Both the position numbers and the translations under genes were made by a program. The notes beneath the pieces are model-generated. The model did no database searches. It saw nothing but the letters and a program-made list of their open reading frames with translations, and had not been told where the DNA came from. Shown piece by piece: positions 10,201 to 64,000 of a stretch of DNA of 64,000 bases. The DNA lies in the NCBI GenBank assembly GCA_028583405.1, contig CM053243.1:25574524-25638523 (forward strand). Reading direction: 5' to 3'. Every line of letters starts with the position of its first letter. Position 1 is the first letter of the stretch. Origin of the DNA: Pogonophryne albipinna. Taxonomy: Eukaryota; Chordata; Actinopteri; Perciformes; Artedidraconidae.

Positions 10201-11149
10201 TTTACCTCTGTAAAGCCAATCCTTGACCATCAGTCACAACAATCTATCAGCCCGCTGCTTTTAACCATCATTGACTTGAGACAGGACCATCATCTGTTAA
10301 ACCCCCACCTCAAGCACGTTGCCTATAGATGAAGATTCCAAACCGAGGTAGGCCAACCAAGCAGAATTGTAGAAAAGGGCTTTAGTGGCCTTTTTTTCTA
10401 AAAAGGGGGAGAAATGTCAGGTTAAAAATGTTGGTAAGCTCTACAGTCTGATGTTCGACATTCAGTAGCATACCACAGAGGTTGGCAGTCAACAGAACTG
10501 AAATATCAGTTCATCTTTAAGGAAAGTTCGAAGACATTTGTTATAAAGTCTTCTTTTTTAATGATGTTACACAAGGAGTGGGCTGAATCAATAATTAAGT
10601 ATAATAGGTCTGCTTGTCACACGGTGAATTATGGGAAAATACAAAGCCATTGAAGCATTTTTCAAACACAACATAGGCTCATGGGCTACCACTACCTTGG
10701 TGGACAGATAAATTGTTTCCGGGAGGAACTGATGCATCTGGCAATAACGGTGGGTGCTCAGAATGATAAGGTATGGTGTCTATGCCTAGAAATTATGAAT
10801 ATATTGTTACAGTATGCAAGCAGAACCTTTACATTAATCATTCATGATTCTTGTGGCCCATTACTTCTCCTATTAAATTATTAATGCTTTGGACCAACTT
10901 TTTTCACATAATCAAGTACTTATTGTTGGCTGCTATAGATTGCTTCTATATATGCAAAGAGAGCCATAAAATGAGACATAAAAGTACAACAACAGACACT
11001 TCATTACATTAAACCAGGCTTTTGTGCTTTGAAAGCCTATTATCTGGTTTATATTGCAGGGCATAAGATACTGTAAATATCAGCACATTGACCCAGCTGT
11101 TTGTCTTCTCTACCCCTCCCTTATTTCCCCAAATCATCCATCTATCTAG

Positions 11150-11541
11150 AGTTTTTCTTGGAGCTGCTGGACAATTCTGAGAAGTCTCTCAACAGTATGT
11201 TCACACGGACGTACGGGAAGCTGTACATGCAGAACTCGGAGGTGTTCCAGGATCTGTTCACTGAGCTAAAGCGCTACTACACGGGGGGCAACGTCAACCT
11301 GGAGGAGATGCTCAATGACTTCTGGTCCAGGCTGCTGGAGCGCATGTTCCAGTTACTCAACTCCCAGTACCACTTCACAGACGACTACCTGGAGTGCGTC
11401 AGTAAATACACAGATCAGCTGAAGCCCTTTGGAGATGTGCCCAGGAAGCTGAAGGCCCAGGTCACCAGGGCCTTCATCGCTGCACGGACATTTGTCCAGG
11501 GGCTAATGGTGGGCCGGGAGGTTGCCAACAGGGTCGCCAAG
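11150..11541 (+). CDS. gpc6: gpc6 internal exon, glypican core (392 nt)
   Basis: This exon encodes 130 codons plus two leading bases of a glypican N-terminal lobe. Glypicans are GPI-anchored heparan sulfate proteoglycans of the cell surface that modulate Wnt, Hedgehog, FGF and BMP signalling. The translation contains [42 protein letters not shown] and [20 protein letters not shown], which match the highly conserved GPC4/GPC6 core. The wording here and in later exons fits GPC6 better than GPC4. The acceptor is ctag at 11146-11149 after a pyrimidine-rich tract, and the donor is GTGAGT at 11542. It enters one base into a codon and leaves on a codon boundary. Whether it is the a or b fish duplicate cannot be decided. 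Upstream exons with the signal peptide are outside the window. Confidence 0.93.
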
Positions 11542-14269
11542 GTGAGTTACATTTTCTTAGCTGTTTGTTGTGTGGCTTTGTGATCCGGTGCTGTTGGGCA
11601 GTGTTGTATTTTCAGATGTTGTATACAGTTCTGCAAATAGCTTTTAAGAAGATATGTCTCTTCTATAACGTGATTGTTTTTAAAGATTTCAATCATTCTA
11701 GTCCTTCCTTGGTGTTTTTTCTAATTGAGAAATATGGTTTGAGGATTTAAACATTCATATAATGCTCTTTTCTTCTGTACTGTATCAAAGTATGGGCACA
11801 GTACCAATGGTATATCCACCTACAACTTTTTATTTATCTGCATTATTCATACTTTCATTGTTTGAAACCTCTACACTGGACTTTTCCTGGATTGGATTAG
11901 TTGCATCTGAATGATTTAATAAAAGCCCAGAATTATAAACAATATGTTGGTTCCATATGAGGATTTTAAGATGCACTTGATCTCTGGTTATGAGTTCCAG
12001 GACCAGATTGTTTTTCACAGTACACAGTGTGCTAGTAGTCTCATTTCAGAAGAAGCAACCGCAGAGAGTAAAGCTTTGCAATAGAGTGAAGATTAAAGCA
12101 TATATCCCCCGAGATTGGTGATGCGGTTTTGTTTGCTGTTTTTCTATTTGCTATTCTCATTGTGTTTTTGGACATTACTTTTTAGGAAAACTAGTGACAT
12201 TTTTAATGGTAACAAATAAATAAGGCAATATAAAATGTTTTTTCTTTCCTGTTGCTCATAGTTTGTTTTGAGAAATTGGTTGATTTGATTCTGAAAAAAT
12301 ATGTTTTTAGAGCATTATCAAACACTGCAGATTATAAATGTGTTTTCCAAGGCTTAGCGGATATGTTTTCTAATTCCATGTTAAACACAGTAAATTACGC
12401 AACAGTTTTTCATCTACGTCTAAAAAAAATTATATAACCAAAGCTGTTTACTTTTGGTGGTGCAATGCATTGCTCAGCTTTATGAAATAGATGCAAGAAC
12501 TGGCAAACATGATAAAACAGGTAGGCAGACTTATTTATGGCCAAATGTCATCATCAAAAATATATACAGCATGAATGTTGTATACAGAGTGGGGTTCCTG
12601 TGACACTGAGCAAAAATAAGGGATGGATTTTTAAGTTATGATATCATAACTTTGATATATGAACACAAATATATGTATATAAAAAATATAGTTTACTGTA
12701 TATCAACAATGATTTGTCATTATTCATTCAATTGGTGATTATATTGATTGCAGGAGACCAATTGATATCCTATGAAATGTGAGATTCCTTATCTCAGTTT
12801 CTCAGACTCTATGGTAATGTTTTGCAAAATGTCTTGTTTGATCAGAGCAATAATCTAAAACCCAATGTTATTTTATTTACATGATTATATACTTCAACTA
12901 AATATTTGCTAATTATTTGATCAGCAGTTAAACCAACAATACAGAGAATATTAACACTTTTTCCGTCAACAATTTCTGTAACTTGTACTTTTGAGACTCT
13001 TTCCAAAATTATCCTTTAAAATAATAACTTACTACACCCTAAGTAAAGTGTTGAATTTAATGTTGAAACTGTAGAAATGATTGTATGTGTCAACAACACA
13101 TGAATTGAAATTGAATTATGTTAGCGCAATTTAACGCACAAGGACTTGAACACGTACATTAAAATACTTAATTTAGTTTTTCTCTCGTCCCTAGACCGGA
13201 CATTTAGCCATTTCCAACTTTGATTGTGTCTGAAATTGAACCATCAGCTTGATATACTATCAGCCTCCTGCCACCCACTGTCCTCACAAAATTCTGGATC
13301 ATTGTTGGAATTTACGTCATAATAGTAGAGTGCCATATCCTTCCCGCCGAACACTGCTGCGGTATATCATCACTGAAGAGTCAATCATATCAAATTGGTT
13401 TGTTATTGTCTTGCCACTGAGCTTGCCGTCCACTGTCCCTCAGTGGCATTTCAGCCATTTCCGATAAAGATTTAAAATGCAACCTCACTCTGGATCAAAT
13501 CCAATATTCCTTGCTTCCTCATCAATTATGAAGTGGAGCCAGGAAACGCAGTGGTGTTGTTGAAGGCTGTCAGGATAGTGCACCACCATAGAACTGAAGG
13601 TGAAGAGTTGCTTGACATGACAAATCACCTTGACCTAAGAATCACCCTGCATACTTGCTGCTTTCAGCGACAGAAAGCCACTTGCATCTCCCTCAAAACA
13701 GCCTTAGAGTACAAACCAATTTCTCACTTCTTAGGTGTAAACACAGCACTATATATATATCAATTTCACATCCAATAACAACTGAGATGTATGTGCTTTT
13801 TGCTGGAGCGCTACATTTGTGCAGTGTTATAGCTGCAAAAATTACTCTAGAAATCACTTTTTTGCAGTTTTTTTAGAAATCATACAAGAGCAAATAGTAG
13901 TTAGATTTGTGTTAAAATGTACTATTACTCCACTTCAAGTTAAAGTCCAGCCATTTGAAAACAAAAGTATTTACAGGTAATTTGTATCAATGGTGTAAAA
14001 GGACTCAATATGCAAAATGTATGTTCTACTTCTCCAGCCCCAGGTTGTCAAATGTGAGGCTTTTCTCTGATTTAAATCATTTCATAGAAAATTAGTGTGG
14101 ACTGTTGGTTGGACAAAACAGTAGAATTGAGGCATCACATTGAAATCTGTATTAAAATGTAAAATATTTTATAAATATTATTGCTGGATTAATAACTGTT
14201 AATGGATTTTGGATCAATCTCATCACAAATTCTTCCTAGTATTGAAGAAGGCCCAGGAGTCGTGAAATA

Positions 14270-18735: not shown

Positions 18736-19020
18736 TGTTACGAACTCAGGCACTTAGGAGGTAGGACCCAATTGCAAGACCCGGGAGACAGAGGTAAAGT
18801 ATTTGTAAGATACTTTATTTTCCAAAACAGCATTGAACAACAAAAAAAGGTAACTATCAAATCTCTAGCCGAGATGACAAAAATAGAGAACAAAAAATGA
18901 AAACGCTCACGTAGTGAGGAATCAAACTTTTCAAAAGCACAAGGAGCATAGACCTGACCATAGAAAGAGACAAGAGCACATAGACCTGAACATGACAAGA
19001 GATGAAACGAACTGACACTG
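18736..19020 (-). repeat. Truncated 3' LTR
   Basis: This copy matches the last 285 bp of the 5' LTR with a handful of substitutions (for example g/t in the gtaggacc word, a/g in gaaaacgc, t/c in caaactttt, a/g in catagaaag). It stops matching at 19020/21390, where the sequence passes directly into the coding repeats. The U3 part is absent. Confidence 0.85.
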
Positions 19021-19145
19021 CAGGGCCCATGATGGAGTTCTCGAGCGGATGGCCCGGGGGCGAGGCAGAGTTCAAGGTGAAGTCCTCGGCTGGGGAACTC
19101 AGGAGACCGGGCTCACGGGCAGGAGCTGGTGGAATCTCTGGCGGG

Positions 19146-20717
19146 TCAGGCGTAGACGAGACCCTGGACGGAACAGGACATAGGGTTGGCAGGACCCCCG
19201 GCAGAAGAGCAGTCGGCGGGATCCCCAACTGGACAGGACATGGAGTTGGCAGGACCCCAGACGAAAAACAGGTGTCGGCTGGACCTCCAACGGCACAGGA
19301 CATAGGGCTGGCAGGACCCCCGGCAGAAGAGTAGTCGACGGGGCCTCCAACGGCACAGAACATATGATTGGCAGGACCCCCAGCAGAAGAGTAGTCGGCG
19401 GGGCCTCCAACGGCACAGGACATAGGGTTGGCAGGACCCCCGGCAGAACAGGAGTCGTCGGGGCCTCCAACGGCACAGGACATAGGGTTGGCAGGACCCC
19501 CAGCAGAACAGTAGTCGTCGGGGCCTCCAACGGCACAGGACATAGGGTTGGCAGGACCCCCGGCAGAAGAGTAGTCGGCGGGGCCTCCAACGGCACAGAA
19601 CATAGGATTGGCAGGACCCCCGGCAGAAGAGTAGTCGTCGGGGCCTCCAACGGCACAGGGCATAGGGTTGGCAGGACCCCCGGCAGAAGAGTAGTCGTCG
19701 GGGCATCCAACGGCACAGGACATAGGGTTGGCAGGACCCCCAGCGGAGCCTCCAACGGACCAGGACATTGGGTAGGGAGTTGAGGGAACTCGAGAGGAGA
19801 CTCGAGAGGGAACTCGAGAGGTGACTCGAGAGGGAACTCGGAAGGTGACTTGAGAAGTGTCTTGAAAGGGGACTCGAGAGGGCACTCGAAAGGGGACTCG
19901 AGAGGGAACTCGAGAGGAGACTCGAGAGGGGACTCGAGAGGGGACTCGAGAGGGGACTCGAGAAGTGACTTGAGACGGTCGGTACGCCGACAGGACACAG
20001 GGAGCTGGCGTCGGCTGGAGAGCCAACAGGAGACGAGGTGCTGGAGTTGGCCGATACGTTGACAGGAGACGAGGTGCTGGAGTTGGCCGGTACGTCCACA
20101 GGACTCGGGGAGCTGGCGTCGGCTAGAGAGCCAACAGGAGACGAGGTGCTGGAGTCGGCCGGTACGCCGACAGGACACGGGGAACTGGAGTCGGCTGGAG
20201 AGCCAACAGGTGACGAGGAGCCGGAGTCGGGATCATGGCTGCTGGGCCCGGTACTTGAGCCGGAACCATGGCTGGAACTGGGGCCGGAACCATGGCTGCT
20301 GGGCCCGGTACTTGAGCCGGAATCATGGCTGGAAGTGGAGCCGGAACCACAGCAGTATGGGCCGGTTCTGGAGCCGGAACCATGGCTGTGGGAACCGGAA
20401 CTGAAGCCTGGATCATGGCCGCGTGGGCCGGTTTTGGTGCCGGAAACATGGCTGTAAGGTCCGGTTCTGGAGCAGGGACCATGGCTGCTGGGGCCGGCAC
20501 TGGAGCCGGAACCATGGCTGCTGGGCAAGGAACCGGAACACGGAACCATGGCTGTGTGGGATGGTACTGGAGCACGGAACCATGGCTGCTGGGGCCGGTT
20601 CTGGAGCAAGGACCATGGCTGCTGGGGCCGGCACTGGAGCCGGAACCATGGCTGTTGGGCGCGGAGCAGAAGCCTGGACCCTGGCTGTGTAAGCCAGGTA
20701 ATGGAGCAAGGAAGCAA
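19146..20717 (-). CDS. Repeat-encoded open frame within the LTR element (523 aa)
   Basis: The longest minus-strand frame across the minisatellites encodes low-complexity protein: tracts rich in Pro/Gly/Ser/His (from about 20717 down), then SSPLSSPLSS-type repeats, then a block repeating RWRPRRLLFCRGSCQPYVLC every 20 residues. Other frames are also open across much of the same DNA (for example 18857-20026 and 19099-20178) because the array periods are multiples of three. Which frame, if any, is translated cannot be told. No enzyme motif is seen. It probably descends from the variable middle of the element's Gag-like protein. Confidence 0.3.
   Translation of the reverse strand: MLPCSITWLTQPGSRLLLRAQQPWFRLQCRPQQPWSLLQNRPQQPWFRAPVPSHTAMVPCSGSLPSSHGSGSSAGPSSHGPCSRTGPYSHVSGTKTGPRGHDPGFSSGSHSHGSGSRTGPYCCGSGSTSSHDSGSSTGPSSHGSGPSSSHGSGSSTGPSSHDPDSGSSSPVGSPADSSSPCPVGVPADSSTSSPVGSLADASSPSPVDVPANSSTSSPVNVSANSSTSSPVGSPADASSLCPVGVPTVSSHFSSPLSSPLSSPLSSLLSSSLSSPLSSALSSPLSRHFSSHLPSSLSSHLSSSLSSLLSSSLNSLPNVLVRWRLRWGSCQPYVLCRWMPRRLLFCRGSCQPYALCRWRPRRLLFCRGSCQSYVLCRWRPRRLLFCRGSCQPYVLCRWRPRRLLFCWGSCQPYVLCRWRPRRLLFCRGSCQPYVLCRWRPRRLLFCWGSCQSYVLCRWRPRRLLFCRGSCQPYVLCRWRSSRHLFFVWGPANSMSCPVGDPADCSSAGGPANPMSCSVQGLVYA
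19168..19770. repeat. 60-bp tandem array, about 10 copies
   Basis: The unit is exactly 60 bp and includes gcaggacccccggcagaaga and ggcctccaacggcacaggac. Copies differ by scattered substitutions, and the edge copies are more diverged. There are no unique spacers, so this is a minisatellite and not a CRISPR array. It lies inside the LTR element at 18736-21626. Confidence 0.9.
19778..19975. repeat. 12-bp tandem array (gactcgagaggg)
   Basis: About fifteen copies of a 12-bp unit, gactcgagaggg, with variants such as gacttgagaagt and gaactcgagagg. On the minus strand one frame encodes serine- and leucine-rich SSPL-type repeats; another encodes valine/proline/serine/arginine-rich VPSR-type repeats. 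Confidence 0.85.
19976..20230. repeat. 36-bp-type tandem array
   Basis: The degenerate unit includes gagccaacaggagacgaggt and gctggagtcggccggtac, recurring at about 36-bp spacing for roughly seven copies. It abuts the 12-bp array on one side and the 33/36-bp array on the other. Confidence 0.7.
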
Positions 20718-20810
20718 AGCTGCGTGGGCCGGTACTGGTGCACGGATCCATGGCCTTGTGGGCCGGTTCTGGAGCCGGAACCATGGCTGCTGGGGCCACG
20801 GCTGGAATCC
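20231..20810. repeat. 33/36-bp tandem array (ggaaccatggctg)
   Basis: The core ggaaccatggctgctggg followed by gccggt and a variable tggagcc recurs about seventeen times at 33-36-bp spacing. On the minus strand one frame reads PAAMVPAPEPA-like repeats, continuing the proline-rich end of the Gag-like start. Confidence 0.8.
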
Positions 20811-20846
20811 TGGCCTTGCGTCTCCTAGAGAGGCTCCGTGGACCTC

Positions 20847-42590: not shown

Positions 42591-43507
42591 CTTGCTCTTG
42601 CCAATAGTTCAATCTTAAACACGTGAATCTTTTGATCTGGTCTAATCCAGATTGGAATGACCACCAAAATCTAATCATCTTGTCCTATGCCAAGTTTCTG
42701 TCCATGACACTTAAGCCACAGTTTTTATGAACTTTCTACAAATATTCTCTATGGATTTGTGTTTACACATTCACTTAAATACAACAAATGTGTGTTTGAG
42801 TAATTGTATTCAGCTCTTTTTGGATGAGGTTGGGTTGCATTGGATGGTTGCCCTGCTCTGCTTGGCTGAGACAGGGCTCCTGATTTTATTACAACTTAAT
42901 TCAATGCTAATTGGCAATACCGGGTTGAGTATTAAACTTTATGCTTTTTATTCACCTCTGTTTAAACGAGCTAGTGGTCTCTCCTCTATCCTCACCTGTC
43001 CTCTAAATCACTTGGCTCAGTCAAGCGGGTGAGCTTAATATCCTTCCCTGTCAATCCGCTGAGAGGAGGCAGACTTTATGTTCCTTAGGTCTCATGACAG
43101 CCACTCTGAAATGCTGGCCTGAGGGCAGGAGCTCAAACTCATTCTGCTGCGGCTGGTCAGGGCAGTCTTGAGAGGTATTGGCTTTCCTCAGTGCTGCCTG
43201 TTATACTGTAATTGTGATAGCTATACTCGATTTACCCCAATGATCTCATTTGTCAATTTAACAAGTCTCCTATAAGCTTTTTCTTACTGAACAAGTTTAA
43301 GTTTAAGTTTTCCTACCATGTTAAACGCTCCTCAGTAAAGCAAAACTTTGGTTTAACAATGAATGCAGTACAAAGTGTTCAGCTTTGACACTGAAAATAA
43401 TAATAATAATAATACATGGGATTTTTATAGTGGTTTTCCTTATGCTCAAAGATGCTTAAGATAAGATGTGTTGCATCGCCTATCAACAGTCATTAATTGT
43501 TAGTTGT

Positions 43508-43870
43508 TATTACGTTACCATTGACGGTTAGCAGGCTCAATGTCGAGTCAAGGCAACATAATAAAGGAGACGGTAGCCGAAGTAATCAAAAGGAATAATT
43601 TAATTAATAATTACCACCATGGTTGAACAAAGGGAATATAAAGTAATGACAGACAAGAACACATACTGCACAGACAGGATCAGCCCCTGACAAAGGGGAA
43701 GGCAGAATACTTATACATGAGGTAATGACGAGACAAGACACACCTGGGTTAATTACAAATGGGTACACCTGGAGGGGAAACGATAAGGACTACAAAACCA
43801 TAACAGGAAACTACAGCTAGACATGACACATCACACTAGGAGCGCCTGATCAGGGCACAAACACATAACA
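43508..43870 (-). repeat. 3' LTR, 363 bp
   Basis: Read on the minus strand it begins TGTTATGTG and ends GTAATA. By direct reading it differs from the 5' LTR at one position (ggaataattt here, ggaagaattt in the other copy). Confidence 0.93.
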
Positions 43871-43884
43871 CCCCCACACCCAAC
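43871..43884 (-). promoter_or_regulatory. Polypurine tract
   Basis: The minus strand reads GTTGGGTGTGGGGG directly before the 3' LTR. Such a purine-rich run primes plus-strand synthesis in LTR elements. Confidence 0.6.
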
Positions 43885-44042
43885 TTTATGTCCATAACCC
43901 CAAGGCGAAATGGGGGAATGAACATAAACAGAAGAAGGAAACAAGAAACAATAATACTGTCAGCACAATAAAAAATACGAATTGTACTAACAGCACCGAT
44001 ATGGATGGCCATAACCCCCACAGTAATGTCATTAAGGGTGAA

Positions 44043-45009
44043 CTTCGTCTCATGCTCAGACAAGCTGTTCCTGAGTGCATCCGCCTCCACAGTCTGGGCC
44101 TTCTCGATGGCCTCCTTCACTCCTGTAGTAAGCTCCCTCTCTTTCAAAGACATCTGCGTGTTGAACTCCCGCATCAGCTGCTTGATGGCAGAATTTTGCT
44201 TCATCTCCACATCTTCCAACTCCAGCTTCAACTTGTTCTCATTCTCTTCCAACAGCTCTTTCTTCATGCACTCCAGGTCCTTCTCGTGCTCCTTCCTCAG
44301 AGTGCGGATGTCTTTCTGCAGGCTGACGAAGTCCTTGTGGATTTGCTCTCTCATTCTTCACCTTTTTCAGATTGTTCTGGAGCGAGTCCAGAGCCTCAGT
44401 GTCCTGCGCTGCAGAGCGGTCTTCCATCTCAGCGTGCATCGCGCTGCTGCTTTGCTGCAAGCTGCTGCACTCCACCTCAGGTCCTGATGGGTTTTGGATC
44501 TGCTTAATCGTTGCCTGATGTTCATCAAGCTGGGAATCTTTCTGACATATTTCTTCTTTCAGGCGATCGACTTCCGCTAAAAGGTTTCCGCGCTGCTCCT
44601 CTGCTTCCTTCAGCTTGGCCTCGACTTCCTGTAGCGCCGTTTCAGTGTCTTTGAGCTCCCCTTGCTGCGCCGCATCCCTCTGGAGTGAGGACAGCTTCTC
44701 TTCATACAAAATGTTCAATTCCTCTAAAGACTTTTCTTTCTCCAGCCTCTCATTACTCAGAATCACTTTGAGTTCTTTCTCCTGCTCTTCCTTAAGCTTG
44801 ACGAGAGCCTCCTCCAGAGTTGTCGTCTTCTCTTCCAACGTCTCCGTGTGTCGTTTGCCGGTCGCTTCGCTGCTCTTGATTTCCTCCAGGCTACTCTGAA
44901 GAACCTTTATCACCTGCTCCTTCTCCTCCAGCTGCGAGGTTAGCTGTTTCTTAATCTGACTGATTTTCTGCTCGGCTTTCTTCTTCAGCTCAGAGACCTT
45001 CCGAGCTTT
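44043..45009 (-). pseudogene. golga4: Captured GOLGA4 (golgin-245) coiled-coil segment
   Basis: About 970 bp encode a heptad-rich coiled coil. ARKVSELKKKAEQKI at the start, LQKDIRTLRKEHEKDLE and QLMREFNTQ further on, and AIEKAQTVEADAL near the end match, in order, the C-terminal third of GOLGA4 as I remember it. GOLGA4 is a trans-Golgi tether whose C-terminal GRIP domain binds ARL1; the GRIP domain is not included here. The intermediate parts are shorter than in human GOLGA4. No intron is visible, suggesting origin from spliced RNA. A two-base change in a short AG run near 44354 shifts the frame: upstream residues are fused to Gag and downstream ones continue in the next frame (43836-44354). 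After about 44043 the sequence returns to the element's 3' untranslated region. Confidence 0.75.
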
Positions 45010-46194
45010 CATATCCTCACCCCTTTGGGCATCCCTACTCAGAGATGTGTGTGTGGGTGTCATTACCAACGATATTTGTTTACTGGGACGGGTAAGGGCA
45101 AAACAGTTCCCCTTTATGTGGCCTTTTTTACCACAGTGGAAACACTCACGCATTTCTCCCCTCATTCCCCGCTCAGCAACCTCGCCCACACTGCCACCGC
45201 CAGAGGCCACAGGCCTGTCACCCAAGCCCCACCTCGGTCTACTCTCCACACTGCGCACAGGATAATTAGGTCTGTCAAAGAGCACTTTGTGCGTCAACAC
45301 GAACTCATCCGCAAGGCTCGCAGCCACTGAGCACTCAGTCACCTTATGTTCATTAATGTACATCGCCACATTATCGGGAAAACAATAGGACTTAAACTCT
45401 TCAAGAAGCACGAGTTCCCGCATCCTAGCCACAGTGTCCACCTTCTCCGACGCGCACCAACGATCAAACACCAGCTCCTTCTCGTAAGCAAACTCCACGT
45501 AGGTCTGCGCATTGTTCTTTCTAAGGGCGCGAAACCTCTGCCTATACGCCTCCGGCACAAGCTCGTAAGCCCTAAGGATAGCAGCCTTCACCACGGCGTA
45601 ATCCTGGGTGTTTGGGCAAAGTGACGCGTAAACGTGTTGTGCTTTCCCGGTGAGTGCGCTCTGGAGAAGTAATGTCCACTGGTCATTAGGCCATTTCAGA
45701 GTTGTGGCTATATTTTCGAACATAGAAAAATATTTGTCAACATCCTTCTCTGAAAATTGCGGGACCAGACGTAGGTGCCTAGTAACATCGAACCTAGCTT
45801 CAAGATGCACTGCCCGCGACTCTACCCCAAGCCTTCCAAGCTCAAGCACGCGCCTACGTTCTGCCTCCTCCGCTTCCCGAGCGCATAACCGCTCTGCATG
45901 TCTCAGCTGCTCGAATTTAAACTCTAGTTCCATCTTCCTCAGCAAAACCTGGTTCTCCGAAACCGGGTCACATGTGACTACCTCCTCCTCCTCCTCAGGT
46001 TTGCCCACAGAGTACTCCATAACCTCCTTGGCGGTCAAAGCCTCCACCAGCGCTAACCGCTGCTGCTGCTTCTTCATGCTCGGGGCAAGCCTGACACCGT
46101 AATGCTCTGCTATCCCCGATAATTCCTCCTTAGTGCACAAGCCCAACAAGTCGACCGTTGGCCTAGCCACAAAATCATCTACCCTCCCAGGCAT
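44239..46194 (-). CDS. Gag-golgin fusion frame (651 aa)
   Basis: One uninterrupted frame from ATG at 46194. Residues 1-130 are charged and helical, with a KEELSGIAEHYGV segment. Residues about 140-305 form a capsid/SCAN-like region (EAYRQRFRALRK, ELVLLEEFKSYCFPDNV). Residues 351-364 are a CCHC zinc knuckle, CFHCGKKGHIKGNC, which binds RNA during packaging. From about residue 396 (ARKVSELKKKAEQKI) the protein turns into a long coiled coil matching golgin GOLGA4, with no stop in between. After about residue 613 the frame leaves the golgin frame and ends in unrelated sequence. The normal partner after the knuckle, a protease and polymerase, is missing. Such a fusion could be co-packaged by a related element. 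Expression is unknown. Confidence 0.85.
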   Translation of the reverse strand: MPGRVDDFVARPTVDLLGLCTKEELSGIAEHYGVRLAPSMKKQQQRLALVEALTAKEVMEYSVGKPEEEEEVVTCDPVSENQVLLRKMELEFKFEQLRHAERLCAREAEEAERRRVLELGRLGVESRAVHLEARFDVTRHLRLVPQFSEKDVDKYFSMFENIATTLKWPNDQWTLLLQSALTGKAQHVYASLCPNTQDYAVVKAAILRAYELVPEAYRQRFRALRKNNAQTYVEFAYEKELVFDRWCASEKVDTVARMRELVLLEEFKSYCFPDNVAMYINEHKVTECSVAASLADEFVLTHKVLFDRPNYPVRSVESRPRWGLGDRPVASGGGSVGEVAERGMRGEMRECFHCGKKGHIKGNCFALTRPSKQISLVMTPTHTSLSRDAQRGEDMKARKVSELKKKAEQKISQIKKQLTSQLEEKEQVIKVLQSSLEEIKSSEATGKRHTETLEEKTTTLEEALVKLKEEQEKELKVILSNERLEKEKSLEELNILYEEKLSSLQRDAAQQGELKDTETALQEVEAKLKEAEEQRGNLLAEVDRLKEEICQKDSQLDEHQATIKQIQNPSGPEVECSSLQQSSSAMHAEMEDRSAAQDTEALDSLQNNLKKVKNERANPQGLRQPAERHPHSEEGAREGPGVHEERAVGRE

Positions 46195-46203
46195 ACCTGC
46201 CCT

Positions 46204-46784
46204 AGTACCGTCGCACCGGGGAGGAAGAAACTAAAGAGCCACCTCCGCTTCCACCAGCATATACGACCAACCAATTAACATATACACAACAACAAACAAA
46301 ACCGGCTTCACCCTACACGTCTGTACAGTCTGTTCTTAATAACTCTGCCCACCGCTCCCCTACCGCTATACACTAAATAGAGAAGAGCACCGGTGTGACC
46401 TTCTGAAGCATCCACACTCAAAATTATTCGCAAGAGATTACAACTGTCGTGTGTTCAAAAAAAAACAACCTAAAACCCATCCCTTAAACGTTTCCATCCC
46501 TCACTATCAGACCCCCTATATAACTAACTAGCTGACATACACCGGCCTAGGAGGAGCCTGACAGGGTCTTCCTACTACCCCGACCAGCATAGACGGTATG
46601 TCTACCAGGCGAAGGAAGGAACCATAGAAAATGGTCCAGCTGCCCTAGCTGGATGAAAACGCTCCTTATTGGAGAATTATTTACCAAGAGGGTATAAAAC
46701 ATGGGCCACACACACGACACTGTCAACCCTAATTCAACGTGTGGACTCAGCTCAGCGGCCACCACCAAATTCCTGCTCACATCA
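46204..46784 (-). other. Untranslated leader of the young LTR element
   Basis: About 580 bp between the primer binding site and the Gag start. No long frame is seen. Packaging signals would be expected here by position, but I cannot identify one. Confidence 0.5.
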
Positions 46785-46802
46785 GTTTGGCACGAGCCCC
46801 CA
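46785..46802 (-). promoter_or_regulatory. Primer binding site, tRNA-Pro type
   Basis: Immediately inside the 5' LTR the minus strand reads TGGGGGCTCGTGCC. The first eleven bases equal the proline-tRNA primer site familiar from gammaretroviruses, complementary to the tRNA 3' end with CCA. Confidence 0.7.
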
Positions 46803-47165
46803 TATTACGTTACCATTGACGGTTAGCAGGCTCAATGTCGAGTCAAGGCAACATAATAAAGGAGACGGTAGCCGAAGTAATCAAAAGGAAGAATTTAATT
46901 AATAATTACCACCATGGTTGAACAAAGGGAATATAAAGTAATGACAGACAAGAACACATACTGCACAGACAGGATCAGCCCCTGACAAAGGGGAAGGCAG
47001 AATACTTATACATGAGGTAATGACGAGACAAGACACACCTGGGTTAATTACAAATGGGTACACCTGGAGGGGAAACGATAAGGACTACAAAACCATAACA
47101 GGAAACTACAGCTAGACATGACACATCACACTAGGAGCGCCTGATCAGGGCACAAACACATAACA
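46803..47165 (-). repeat. 5' LTR, 363 bp
   Basis: Same length and orientation as the 3' copy, with one visible mismatch. LTRs are identical at insertion, so the element is recent. Confidence 0.93.
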
Positions 47166-47511
47166 GTTGTACACAAGTCATCTTTTATGCGTAACCAAGT
47201 AATCACAGTTACCTAAACATAATCTGAACCACAGGGTAGCAGATCAGTAAAAAAAACTCAGGTAATGCCTTAAAGAAAGGAAGGAAAGTATTTGTTTTGT
47301 CGTTTTTGTAAAGAAAAGTCTTGCAGTGATTTTATTTTAGTGTAGTTCTCACAGCTCACTGAGGATGTTTTTTATTTTTCCATTTTTTTCTTCCGGGTAC
47401 CAAGTGACGTAAGGGTCTAAGTGACGTAACGGCTAAAATGGCTCAAATAAATCAGTAAAACAAATATACATTTAAAAAGGAAACAAATAGGATAATATAA
47501 TAGGTCCAAGG

Positions 47512-55820: not shown

Positions 55821-57130
55821 CTATCGCTCGAAGTGGAGTCGAAAGAGATGAGTTTTCAGTCTGCGCCGGAAGGTGTGTAAGCTATCTGCTGTCCTGATGT
55901 CAATGGGGAGCTCATTCCACCATTTTGGAGCCAGGATAGCAAACCCACGTGTTTTTGCTGATGGGAACTTGGATCCACTTCGCAGCGAGGGTGCAGCGAG
56001 CCGTTTGGTTGATGCAGAGCGGAGTGCACGTGCTGGGGTGTACGGTTTAACCATGTCCTGGATGTAGGAAGGGCCAGACCCATTCGCAGCATGGTACGCA
56101 AGTACCATTGTCTTGAAGTGGATTCTAGCAGTTACCGGAAGCCAGTGGAGGGAGCGGAGGAGCGGCGTGGTGTGGGAGAATTTAGGAAGGTTGAAGACCA
56201 GGCGAGCAGCTGCATTCTGGATGAGCTGCAGAGGTCGGCTGGCACATGCAGGTAGACCAGCCAGGAGGGAGTTGCAGTAGTCTAGGCGTGAGATGACGAG
56301 AGCCTGGACCAGAACCTGCGTCGCTTTCTGGGTCAGCTGGGTCAGCCTCCTGATGTTGTAAAGCGTGTATCTGCAGCAGCGGGTTGTAGCAGCGATGTTT
56401 GCAGTGAAGGACAGGTTGTTATCTAGGGTCACACCCAGATTCCTTGCAGTCTGAGTCGGGGAAACAACAGAGGTGCCAATGTTGATTGTTAGGTCAAGAG
56501 TGGGACAATCTTTTCCCGGAAGGAAAAGGAGTTTAGTCTTGTCAAGGTTGAGCTTGAGGTGATGATCAGACATCCACTGAGAGATGTCAGCTAGACAAGC
56601 AGAGATGCGTGCGACGACCTGGGTCTCTGAGCGGGGAAAGGACAGAATTAATTGGGTGTCGTCAGCGTAGCAGTGGTATGAAAAACCATGCAGGCTAATG
56701 ACTGATCCGAGCGAGTTTGTGTACAAGGAGAAGAGGAGGGGACCAAGAACAGAGCCCTGAGGGACCACTGTAGTTAATTGACAAGAGTCGGACTCGGACC
56801 CTCTCCAAGTAACCCTGTAGGTGCGGTCTTTGAGGTATGAGGTGAGGAGGGAAAGTGCAGAGCCTGAAACTCCAAGTTCTTGGAGAGTGCGAAGGAGGAT
56901 CTGATGATTCACCGTGTCGAATGCAGCAGACAGGTCCAAAAGGATGATGACAGAGGAGAGGGAGGCTGCTTTAGCAGTGTGCAGTTCCTCAGTGACAGCA
57001 AGGAGGGCAGTTTCTGTGGAGTGACCTGCCTTGAAACCAGACTGGTGCGGATCCAGAAGGTTGTTCTGATGGAGATAACAGGAGAGTTGTTTAAAGACAG
57101 CGCGTTCAAGTGTTTTAGACAGGAACGGGA
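55821..57130 (-). pseudogene. L2 reverse transcriptase, C-terminal part
   Basis: In the second frame, upstream of 56939 and down to a stop at 55821, the polymerase continues: DLSAAFDTVNHQILL (first catalytic aspartate), VVPQGSVLGPLLFSLY, then CYADDTQLILSF with the YADD catalytic pair near 56670. After this come SRLDYCNSLLAGLP, LHWLPVTARI and the terminal WWNELP and FRRRLKTHLFRLHF motifs. All recognisable blocks are present and undamaged. The frame opens upstream of 56939 as far as the shift near 57131-57143. Confidence 0.85.
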
Positions 57131-58753
57131 GGAGAGAGAGACAGGCCTGTAGTTTATAACATCAGACGGGTTGAGAGTGGGTTTCTTTAGGAGAGGGTTT
57201 ACTCTTGCCTCCTTGAGACTGTTTGGAAAGTGACCAGAAGTTAGAGAAGTGTTGATGAAATGGGTGAGAAACGGTAGAATATCAGGAGCGATAGTCTGAA
57301 GGAGGTTTGAAGGGATAGGGTCCAGAGGACAGGTGGTAGGGCGGGCAGAGGTAATGAGGGTAAGAACCTCACTTGGAGAGAGAGGGGAAAAGGAGGTCAG
57401 TGTGTGGGTGAAAGGAGGGTCTGGTGACCCAGCGGTGAGTAGAGGTGAGTCCGAAAAAGAAGAGCGAATATCATCAACCTTTTTTTCAAAGTGGTTAACA
57501 AAGTCGCTTGACAGAAGGGAGGAGGGGGAAGGGGCTTTTGGGGGGTCCAGGAGGGAGGAGAAGATGGAAAATAGTTTTTTGGAATAGGAAGATTGGATCT
57601 TATCTTGAAAGAAAGTGCTTTTTGCCTGAGAGATCGAAGCAGAGAAAGAGGAGAGGAGAGCCTGATAGGTTAGGAGGTCGTCACGGTGTTTGGATTTCCA
57701 CCATTTCCGCTCTGCTGCCCGAAGGACGGTTCTATTAGCACGCAGTGCATCATTTATCCAGGGAGCAGGAGGGGACTGACGAGCCTGCCGAGATGTGAGA
57801 GGACAGAGAGAGTCCAGAGAGGATGAGAGAGTAGAGAGAGTAGAGAGGAGAGTTTCTGCAGCAGAGTTTGGAGGTAGGAGTTGGAACGAGTCAGAGGAAG
57901 GGAGGGCTGAGAGCACCGATGAGGCAAAGGTAGAGGGGGAGAGGGAACGAAGGTTGCGGCGGACAGGTGCAGGATGAGAAGAGATTAGTTTGTTATGTTT
58001 GGAAAGGGGTAGAGAGAATGAAATGAAGAAGTGATCTGATGTGTGGAGCGGGTTTACAGAGAGGTTAGAAGTAGTGCAGTTCCTTGAGAATATGAGATCA
58101 AGGACATTGCCAGCTTTATGAGTTGGTGGGGATGGAGACAGTGAGAAAGCAAAGGCGGTTAACAGAGATGTTAGTTCGTCTATCTTCCCTGTCTGGAGGT
58201 TGAAGTCTCCGAGAAGTACAGCGGGAGGGCCAGTTTCAGGGATGTGTGAGAGGAGATTATCTAATTCCTCCAAGAAGTCTCCCAAGGCGCCTGGTGGACG
58301 GTAGAGAACAACAATGGTTAATTGTATAGGATGGGTTACTGTGACGGCATGGAATTCAAAGGTGGAAGGAGTGAAGTTAGGTAGCTTGAAGAGGGAAAAG
58401 CTCCATTTGGGGGAGAGCAGGAGACCAGTGCCACCTCCTCTGCCAGTGGGTCTGGGTGTATGGGAGAAGGAATATGCTGTGGAGAGAGCTGCTGGGGTGG
58501 ATGTGTTGTATGGAGTAATCCACGTCTCAGTGAGAGCAAGGAAATCCAGAGACTGCAGGGAAGCGTAGCCAGAGATGAAGTCAGCCTTAGGAACAGCTGA
58601 CTGGCAGTTATACAGGCCGCCTGAAACTAGATGTTGGATCTCAGTGGAGCATGTGGGATAGACGAGAGCCGGCCGGTTATATCGATTAGGAGATACACGG
58701 GGCCAGTGATAATTGCGAGAAGACACATGAACAGGAATGGAGAAAATACACAT
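56909..58753 (-). pseudogene. L2 endonuclease and N-terminal RT part
   Basis: The frame opens at ATG 58753. It has an apurinic-type endonuclease (ALTETWI, a GGTGLLLSPKW loop, LLGDFNLQTGK, then SDHFFISFSL), which nicks the target DNA. It then has a linker and the start of the reverse transcriptase (CPLDPIPSNLL, LKEARVNPLLKKP, NYRPVSL). Right after NYRPVSL a run of alternating T and C on the minus strand has two extra bases and the frame is lost; the remaining residues to 56909 are out of frame. The continuation is in the next feature. It is a recent copy of an active family rather than a working gene. Confidence 0.85.
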
Positions 58754-58850
58754 GATTATAGCATGAGGGGCTAAACAACCAAATGAAATAAAACACCAGC
58801 GATACTTAGCTCAATCAAAGTAGGATTTGCCTCCTCTTTGCCACCCTCGT

Positions 58851-61784: not shown

Positions 61785-62160
61785 ATATTAACACACCAGT
61801 TAATATTGTGATCTGCCTCGCCGTTCTTTCTGTCGAAATAACGGTAAGGTTTGATTTTTTCTTCAAGCTAGTAACATACCTGTTGCTAGTTTGTTCTTCC
61901 CTCCACACAGACACCAAGGTAAAGAGGACGTTCTCTTTTCTCTCTCACACCAGAGGAGACAGAGATAAAAAAAAGTATTAACACACCAGTTAATATTCTT
62001 TAAAGAATAAAATCTACACCGTCGCCTTTTTTCCTTTCGGACTAACGGCAAGGTTGGATTTTTTTCTGAGTAAGGTACCTGTTATTAACGTGTCCACTCT
62101 ACGCCGACACCCCGGCGATCGAAGATGGACCCTTCTCTCCCTCACACCAGAGGAGTCAGG
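61785..62160 (+). repeat. Tandem duplication of DIRS leader, about 185 bp twice
   Basis: The first copy begins attaacacaccagttaatat at about 61788 and runs to tctcacaccagaggagacag near 61967. The second begins with the same words at about 61978 and ends with ctcacaccagaggagtcagg near 62160. They differ by substitutions and small indels. The second includes the start codon of the Gag frame and its first codons. Confidence 0.75.
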
Positions 62161-63748
62161 GACTCGGAGGCCCGGCTATGCCGCTGCGGATTTAAGATTT
62201 CAGGCACAGACTCACACCAGGTCTGCTCGTCCTGCCTCGGGCTGGAACACGCCCGGGAGGCTATCGATAACCCCGGCTCGTGCGGGCATTGTACCCGCTT
62301 CACCATGAAGAGCCTCCGCCGACGGTTAGCACGCCAAGCTAGCTTGTCGGGACAGGACCCCCTCATGTCCGCTGATTCGCCGTCCGGAAATAAAGACATG
62401 GTGGCGTCCGCCGCAGAGATTGAGCCCCGCGCTGTATCAGACTGGGGCTCAACAACGGCGACAGCCGCTGAACCGGAGCTCCACGCCGTTTCAGGCTGGG
62501 ACCCGGTGGCGGCAAGAGCCGCGAGAGCAGAGCCCCGCGCTGTGTCAAGCCGGGGCTCCCAATTGGACCTCACCATGGTTCCACCCGCGGAGGATGTCCT
62601 GGAGTTGGACTACATGGAGGACGAAGAGGATGCCTCTGAGTTCCTCCTGTCTGACTCGGATGGGGATGACATCTTCGTTTCATCGGCTCAGGCTGCAAAG
62701 CAAAGCAAACCCGGGCGAGAGCACACCAGCTTCGCCCGTCCTAAGCATGGACTTGCAGGCCGTGTGTCAACGCGCTGCGTCCAGGCTGGACATCCCATGG
62801 CCTGAAGTGGCCAAGGAGACCTCCAGATCTCGCTACGAGGGGAAGAACTTGCCCCAAGCAGCGAGGACGAAGAGGCAGCTCCTTCCAGTCTTTCCGGAGA
62901 TGCTGGACGAGGTGTCGGTCTCGTGGAGAGACCGTCCCTTCAGCAACAAGGCCCCAATCCAGGGTGCCTCCTCCCTGGACTGTGACGGTATGGAGAGGCT
63001 CGGCCTGCTCCGCATGCCGCCCATGGAACCGCTGGTGGCAGCCCACCTCCAACCGAGGCTGGCTTCGACACCAAGCAGGAACCCCATGCTACCGGCAAAG
63101 GCAGACCGGTTCCAGTCAGCGATGACCGAACGGGCCTATAAAGCCGCAGCTTTGTCCGCCAGGGCTCTCAACGTCTCCTCGCTGCTGACCGCCTACCAGG
63201 CGGAGCTTTGCGAGGACATGTCGAGCAGACCTGAGCCTGCCGTGTGGGACGAGATCGCAGCGATCACGGACATTTGCCTCCGTGTGCAGCGCTGCGCAGT
63301 CCAAGCCACGGGCAAAGCGCTGGGAATGATGGTGGTACAGGAGAGAGCCAGGTGGCTCAACCTGACCAACCTTCCAGACCGGGAAAAAGAGGATGTTCTG
63401 GACATGCCTATTGTTCCCGAGGGCATATTTGGCTCCGCTCTAGCTTCAATGCAGCTGAGGTGCGAGTCAAAAAGGAAGGGAGACGAGGCTCTCCAGCTCT
63501 GTCTCCCCCGAAGGGTCCAGCCGCCACCTCCAATGGTCCCGCGGCAGGCCTTCACCCAAGCTGTCTTACGTCCTGTCCGGTTCAAAATACCGAAGCAGCA
63601 GAGACCGCAGCCCGTCCCGGGTCCCCAGCCCGGGCACGAGACAAGAGGGAGCTGGCCAAGAAAATCTCCGGTCCCGGCAGCTGTCGCTCAGGCACAGCCG
63701 ACACAGGTTTTCAGCCACCAGACGAGGAAGAAGAAGCGGGCGGCCTGA
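62125..63748 (+). pseudogene. DIRS Gag-like ORF1, frameshifted
   Basis: The frame opens at ATG 62125 (MDPSLPHTRGVRDSEA). A cysteine/histidine cluster follows: CRCGF, then HQVCSSCLGLEHA and SCGHCTRF, a likely zinc-binding fold typical of fish DIRS Gag. An acidic region (EDEEDASEFLLSDSDGDD) comes next. Between about 62690 and 62740 the reading passes to the second frame, which goes on with SMDLQAVCQRAA, MLDEVSVSWRDRPFS, LPAKADRFQSAMTERAYKAA and MPIVPEGIFGSALASM to a stop at 63748. I place a single small indel there. The protein would coat the element RNA. Codon use is GC-richer than the surrounding intron. Confidence 0.7.
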
Positions 63749-64000
63749 CCGCCTCCTCTCCTCTCCTCGATGAAGGAGCTGGAAGTTCCCTGTTCCCCAG
63801 CTCCAGAGCACGTTCCAGTGTTGGATGCTCATGTGTTTTCGGGGTGCCACCATGCCCCCATTTTCCCGCCGCCTCGAGTGATGCCAGAACGTCATCCTCA
63901 AGTTCGCGCCATCAGGGAAATGGACTTAACATCAAAGACAGCAAGTTCCGCTGCCTGTTTAAGTCACACAAACACATGTCATCATTGTTGTTTCAAAATA
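63749..64000 (+). other. DIRS sequence beyond ORF1, cut by window edge
   Basis: A further open stretch begins ATGAAGGAGCTGGAAGTTCC near 63771 and includes PSRVMPERH-like and IREMDLTSK-like words in one frame. It probably leads into the reverse transcriptase frame, but the window ends before any catalytic motif. Confidence 0.4.

Follow-up and report, generated by a model that had tools for sequence, protein, structure and literature searches.

How does a Golgi tether come to be read behind the Gag protein of a retroelement? The question is raised by 64,000 nucleotides of the fish Pogonophryne albipinna (assembly GCA_028583405.1, contig CM053243.1, positions 25,574,524 to 25,638,523; this whole stretch is the window in what follows), where an element bounded by long terminal repeats (LTRs), 3658 bp in all, occupies positions 43508-47165 on the minus strand. 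A first-pass annotation, drawn from the letters themselves, had described an intact-looking Ty3/gypsy-type element without pol, the Gag frame of which runs into coiled-coil sequence captured from the host golgin GOLGA4. We find it very probable that a Gmr1-like element did capture golga4 by template switching, that the golgin took the place of pol, and that the resulting chimera spread with the enzymes of its parents, the golgin being carried as a passenger.

The anatomy bears out the first part of this description. The two LTRs, each of 363 bp (5' LTR at 46803..47165, 3' LTR at 43508..43870; these and the following features of the element are all on the minus strand), differ by one mismatch, and a target-site duplication (TSD), GTTGT, stands on either side (43503..43507 and 47166..47170). 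Directly inside the LTRs lie a primer-binding site, TGGGGGCTCGT (46792..46802), at the 5' one, and a polypurine tract, TGGGTGTGGGGG (43871..43882), at the 3' one; together with the repeats and the TSD they mark the element as an LTR retrotransposon. The primer site may resemble the 3' end of tRNA-Pro. Its bases are identical in 25 of the 28 measured golgin-carrying copies of the genome, with single-base variants in L021, L031 and L035. A 5' leader (46195..46791) separates the primer site from the start of Gag, and a noncoding 3' tail (43871..44022), matched in ten of the 11 golgin-free copies that we call parental, leads into the 3' LTR. No pol was found between the LTRs, where tblastn with relatives bearing integrase or reverse transcriptase (RT) matched the Gag part only, and neither two viral-contig scans nor phage records yielded a relative. 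A tRNA scan likewise gave no match.

The fusion open reading frame (ORF) of the window copy (44239..46194) codes for 651 amino acids and a stop, with no interruption between a SCAN-type Gag and the coiled coil. The Gag part (45004..46194), common to the parental copies, includes a SCAN domain (45289..45555, amino acids 214-302; PF02023, Pfam E 5.5e-13). The zinc knuckle that had been placed ahead of the coiled coil is present as a CCHC motif (45103..45147, amino acids 350-364), although it falls below the Pfam cutoff. Within gag, copies differ by one or two units of a 33-bp in-frame tandem repeat (~45848-45890 of the window, and the corresponding position in loci L009-L036). GOLGA4 sequence had been read in two frames, and the second of these (43836-44354) does hold the rest of the golgin; however, a frameshift at 44345..44355, near 44349, breaks the fusion of this copy after golgin residue ~222, leaving the final ~35 amino acids of the ORF out of frame with the golgin.

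In a protein search residues 388-615 found seven matches among 7514 candidates, at 58-70% identity to the coiled coil; all seven have a GRIP domain, two of them bear the name golgin subfamily A member 4, and none has a Gag. The golgin piece alone had no match at E 0.001 among 1269 candidates, because full-length golgins exceed the length limits of that search. The nearest database Gag, protein P0008 of the icefish Chaenocephalus aceratus (94% over 78%, residues 88-397), is without golgin, as are the Gag relatives among the matches listed (120 of 262). Searches of solved structures returned nothing useful for Gag or golgin, and a structural model of the window ORF (mean predicted local distance difference score, pLDDT, 72; predicted template modelling score, pTM, 0.30) has Gag helices and long golgin helices in an overall arrangement that is unreliable.

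The source gene and the joins

The GRIP-side exons of the fish's own golga4 form a single locus (C1 near 38.576-38.583 Mb; six matches among 25 scored candidates, all of them there). Aligned to this gene, the captured sequence is 95-100% identical at the DNA level and passes across exon joins without introns. Since the match is to one golga4 locus, a golgin-by-golgin comparison becomes moot. The bulk of the capture is the 3' end of the giant exon of golga4 (44227..45006, 98.6% DNA identity over 789 columns). It is followed by the next exon (44105..44226, 100% over 122 bp), the 100-bp intron before it being absent, and by the start of the following exon (44080..44104, 26 of 26 bases), where a 697-bp intron is absent; both missing introns are GT...AG in host golga4. 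The blocks had been said to follow the order of the gene, and all of them do except the last: the final ~57 captured bases (44023..44079, 95% over 65 bp) originate ~0.5 kb upstream, within the giant exon. A placement of the 3' join in the end of pol, on the motif ADALSR, was dropped, as host golga4 shows this piece to be golgin.

The joins overlap by 3, 7 and 1 bases. Gag and golgin meet at 45004..45006, not at 45009 as first given, in a GCT common to the Gag parent and golga4; seven bases overlap at the join to the out-of-order piece, and the last join shares one base with the 3' tail, which is no more than expected by chance. The golga4 alignment covers the entire captured sequence, which does not comprise fragments of several host genes. 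With two GT-AG introns missing and short overlaps at the junctions, the captured template is indicated to be a spliced golga4 mRNA, which would have been entered, rearranged and left through three template switches.

Parents, copies and signs of recombination

The same junction recurs elsewhere in the genome, the window copy being one member of a multi-copy family. Of 146 candidates found with the junction, 40 were scored. The entire junction is present, at 97-100%, in 29 of these, the window copy being one, and the other 11 match on the gag side alone. All 11 of these parental copies, once fetched, match the Gag part and are without golgin. The 3' tail similarity resumes in ten of them, in eight of those ten after ~3.6 kb; in the stretch fetched for L045 we found no 3' tail and no second LTR. 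Where the junction was read, in six parents, the sequence continues like P0008 (YLPFISEG...), in L041 only briefly, so that golgin is no standard part of this family; the continuation is a candidate protease, matched by no Pfam protease model. A 1599-amino-acid frame is open in three of the 11, and that of L042, searched in three pieces, has H2C2, rve and p58_C integrase domains, then RVT_1, then RNase H, the same order as in the relative P0093. In L042 and L047 no frame of at least 100 amino acids begins after it within the element, no search for env having been made. Among the nine parents with two measurable LTRs, three have identical LTRs and six have a 5-bp duplication.

Integrase upstream of RT is the hallmark gene order of Gmr1-like elements. 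The chimera has a SCAN-type Gag, and its parent L042 has integrase before RT; by domains and gene order, the chimera is a non-autonomous lineage of a Gmr1-like Ty3/gypsy LTR retrotransposon, from which it differs in having neither protease, integrase nor RT. These features, together with the missing introns and the short overlaps, uphold the proposal of host capture within a Ty3/gypsy-type element. The SCAN domain has been traced to Gmr1-like Gag (PMC3406341) and, among frog LTR elements, is reported from Gmr elements only (PMC4131045).

A side observation concerns related proteins. In P0086, P0099 and P0105 a SCAN-type Gag is followed, in one predicted protein, by a fragment of an SLC6-type transporter (PF00209, listed for all three and confirmed by scan for P0099). 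P0099, the cluster of which has 45 members, and P0105 also have a protease-like stretch. These are possibly a second independent capture of a host gene in such elements, or else a merger made by gene prediction.

A golgin query of the genome, which may skip very common words, gave 33 scored candidates, which resolve into the golga4 locus and 32 other places. All 32 adjoin element sequence; 29 were examined with their flanks and three by 0.7-kb pieces, these three having deletions near the join. Among the 29, a 5-bp TSD is found in 27, the exceptions being L014, without a full 5' LTR, and L030, with an N in its flank. Three pairs of copies have their 500-bp flanks in common, and the 29 copies thus represent 26 distinct sites, on many contigs. 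LTR divergence within golgin-carrying copies is 0-0.0139, with zero substitutions in nine of the 28 measured. At a borrowed zebrafish synonymous rate of 4.13e-9 per year (PMC3091775), this corresponds to a rough age of 0 to 1.7 million years. Divergence of the golgin part from golga4 is ~0.5 to 2.6% across copies. Three unpolarized differences from the host gene are common to 24 of the 26 non-duplicate copies and a fourth to 23, some copies not covering those sites. The identical joins and these common differences point to a golgin that was captured once, all copies probably descending from that single capture.

Golgin and gag deletions distinguish subfamilies of golgin-carrying copies (L014 and L019 being excluded from them). 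In subfamily C, seven of eight copies carry LTRs that match those of parents L043 and L046 at 99.1-99.7%, whereas the Gag of these copies comes nearest, by narrow margins, to L038 and L040. Across loci L009-L047, with parental and golgin-carrying copies taken together, the LTR tree conflicts with the gag tree (both read without support values), a sign of recombination. The mosaic of LTR and Gag in subfamily C suggests joint packaging of chimeric and parental RNAs, and recombination between them. It fits mobilization in trans; it does not prove it.

Capture, spread and the fate of the golgin

The events may be pictured as follows. During reverse transcription of a parental RNA the enzyme would have switched, near the 3' end, onto a spliced golga4 mRNA; after one further jump inside golga4 it would have switched back into the end of gag. 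Through these switches ~3.6 kb of pol gave way to golgin, 993 bases (331 codons) that continue the frame of Gag. Both this exchange and the joins are demonstrated by the anatomy, and the order of the switches is deduced from how reverse transcription proceeds. RNA driven by the LTR would then encode Gag-golgin and, having kept LTRs, primer site and polypurine tract, would be packaged, copied and inserted by enzymes that parental elements presumably supplied in trans. The Gag part probably contributes to particles, with the golgin carried along. The chimera, which retains LTRs, primer site, polypurine tract and Gag, has spread to about thirty sites, presumably in this way.

Other origins for the joined sequence have little to offer. 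There is practically no chance that the coiled coil has nothing to do with golga4 in particular, being either generic or a regular part of these elements: coiled coils do match one another weakly, and secondary matches stood at ~20-27% identity, but a single locus, with GRIP-side exons beside it, is 98.6% identical in DNA over 789 columns, which refutes this reading, and golgin is absent from the 11 fetched parents as well as from the Gag relatives listed. It is very improbable that a long interspersed nuclear element (LINE) made a processed golga4 copy which landed in a parental element, the composite being amplified afterwards. Such a copy would likewise be intron-free, and a LINE-like endonuclease and RT pair lies in the window; yet pol is replaced and not interrupted, parental similarity halting where golgin begins and resuming where it ends, both ends of the capture are internal to the mRNA, one segment is out of order, the joins overlap by 1-7 bases, and neither pol remnants nor a poly-A end are found. 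A rearrangement of DNA, or an assembly artefact, that brought gag and golga4 together is hardly conceivable: the three pairs of copies with common flanks show that some duplication exists, but the introns are absent and 5-bp TSDs accompany 27 of 29 copies at 26 distinct sites on many contigs.

What the golgin does once captured is a finer question, and the first-pass annotation had left it between a fusion that directs Gag to coiled-coil partners and a simple passenger. Substitution counts, which assume a transition weight of 2, were taken from comparisons other than the MAFFT divergence table, misaligned for L013, L017 and deletion edges; counts of insertions and deletions (indels) exclude L014 and L030 upstream and, for golgin, L013, L017, L018 and subfamily C (no 3' anchor), the golgin deletions of which were read from that table and from the analysis of repeat phase. 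Gag changes that recur in two or more chimeras and in none of the fetched parents comprise 21 nonsynonymous and 15 synonymous ones (omega ~0.49, P 0.03). Of 17 indel events in gag, 12 have a length divisible by three, though seven of these 12 sit at the 33-bp repeat, compared with two of 22 in the leader (P 0.0001). Changes shared within subfamilies are five nonsynonymous to nine synonymous in Gag (P 0.003) and 11 to one in golgin, a significant contrast (Fisher P 0.005). In golgin, all shared changes taken together number 18 nonsynonymous and five synonymous (omega ~1.2), those found in 2-19 copies give an omega of ~0.94, and all changes pooled an omega of ~0.76 (P 0.17). Gag shows here the marks of purifying selection, and since golgin has no significant constraint, its tail is more likely a passenger than a tool; it is to this side that the data lean.

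Several observations weigh against so tidy a conclusion. Private Gag changes (50 nonsynonymous, 21 synonymous; omega ~0.83) speak of little constraint, and the broader contrast of Gag (21:15) with golgin (14:5) does not reach significance (Fisher P 0.38). Conversely, private golgin changes (32 nonsynonymous, 17 synonymous; omega ~0.63, P 0.09) lean towards constraint, and no stop occurs among 72 distinct golgin changes where 3.4 would be expected (P ~0.03), a hint that the golgin frame may matter. To these must be added that the counts depend on the assumed transition weight, that shared changes may move by recombination, that the trees were read without support values, and that expression and mobilization in trans are both deduced.

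Could the golgin tail, then, be in use? A coiled-coil arm might aid particle assembly, stabilize Gag or borrow the partners of the golgin, the fusion itself being selected, and beyond the two leanings just given this would be favoured by a frame that, in 15 of 29 copies but not in that of the window, starts at an ATG within or close to gag, crosses the golgin and enters the 3' LTR without a stop, by large golgin deletions that are multiples of three in six of seven resolved cases (that of L013 was not resolved), and by the long golgin helices predicted in the model of the window ORF. We nevertheless hold it unlikely. Shared golgin changes, at a ratio of 18 to five, give no sign of constraint. 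An end of the frame after golgin residue ~222, like that of the window copy, occurs in seven of 29 copies, at six distinct sites, though recurrent slippage could explain this. As for the deletions, 30 of the 39 pairs of direct repeats of at least 7 bases that stand 100-320 bp apart in this sequence are in phase, so that deletions which keep the frame are to be expected in any case (P 0.44 for six or more of seven); after this control they were dropped as a sign of selection. Slightly more doubtful still is the stronger proposal that Gag-golgin is functional, its arm altering the assembly or the destination of Gag (towards Golgi membranes or golga4 partners, for example), and that the family spread by this means.

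The rest of the window may be described briefly. A glypican exon (PF01153, E 4.4e-66) is found at 11092-11580 on the plus strand. Long minus-strand frames lie over dense tandem repeats of 12, 33, 36 and 60 bp at 18860-20846, one of them scanned and without a Pfam match. The LINE-like endonuclease and RT frames occupy 55824-58810 on the minus strand. At the right end (62089-63999) long frames overlap, and two that were scanned had no Pfam match.

Known systems and what the family offers

Here the capture of a host gene by a vertebrate LTR retrotransposon can be read within one genome, with its source gene, its parents, its three joins and an amplified family that can be dated. Two questions thereby become testable: outside viruses, how often does such a capture give rise to a lineage that propagates itself, and does a host domain, once joined to Gag, ever persist on account of its function? 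If the functional reading were true, the retrotransposon would have made a host tether one of its structural components. No amplified family of Gag-golgin elements in a vertebrate was reported in the literature searched, a search too incomplete to establish absence from print.

One comparison is with the acute transforming retroviruses of the gag-onc type, in which host coding sequence behind Gag replaces pol and propagation depends on a helper. The fish element differs in having a structural golgin instead of an oncogene, in having been amplified in the germline, and in showing no sign of env, for which no search was made, or of infection. LTR-mediated retroposition, in which a host mRNA is captured through template switching at short similarities, is reported from zebrafish, chicken, mosquito and Drosophila (Tan et al. 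2016, via PMC5408686). Intron-free host sequence between LTRs and short similarities at the joins are found here too; by contrast, what is described there are retrocopies, whereas here a family with an in-frame Gag fusion has been amplified. The closest case that we have seen is Bs1 of maize, an LTR retrotransposon in which a gag domain is fused to fragments of host genes (PMC8616336). The in-frame fusion of gag to host coding sequence is the common feature. Bs1 is a plant element that carries fragments of three host genes and is reported there to be expressed (PMC8616336), whereas the fish chimera carries one golgin gene, in 32 places, in a genome that also holds its enzyme-bearing parents.

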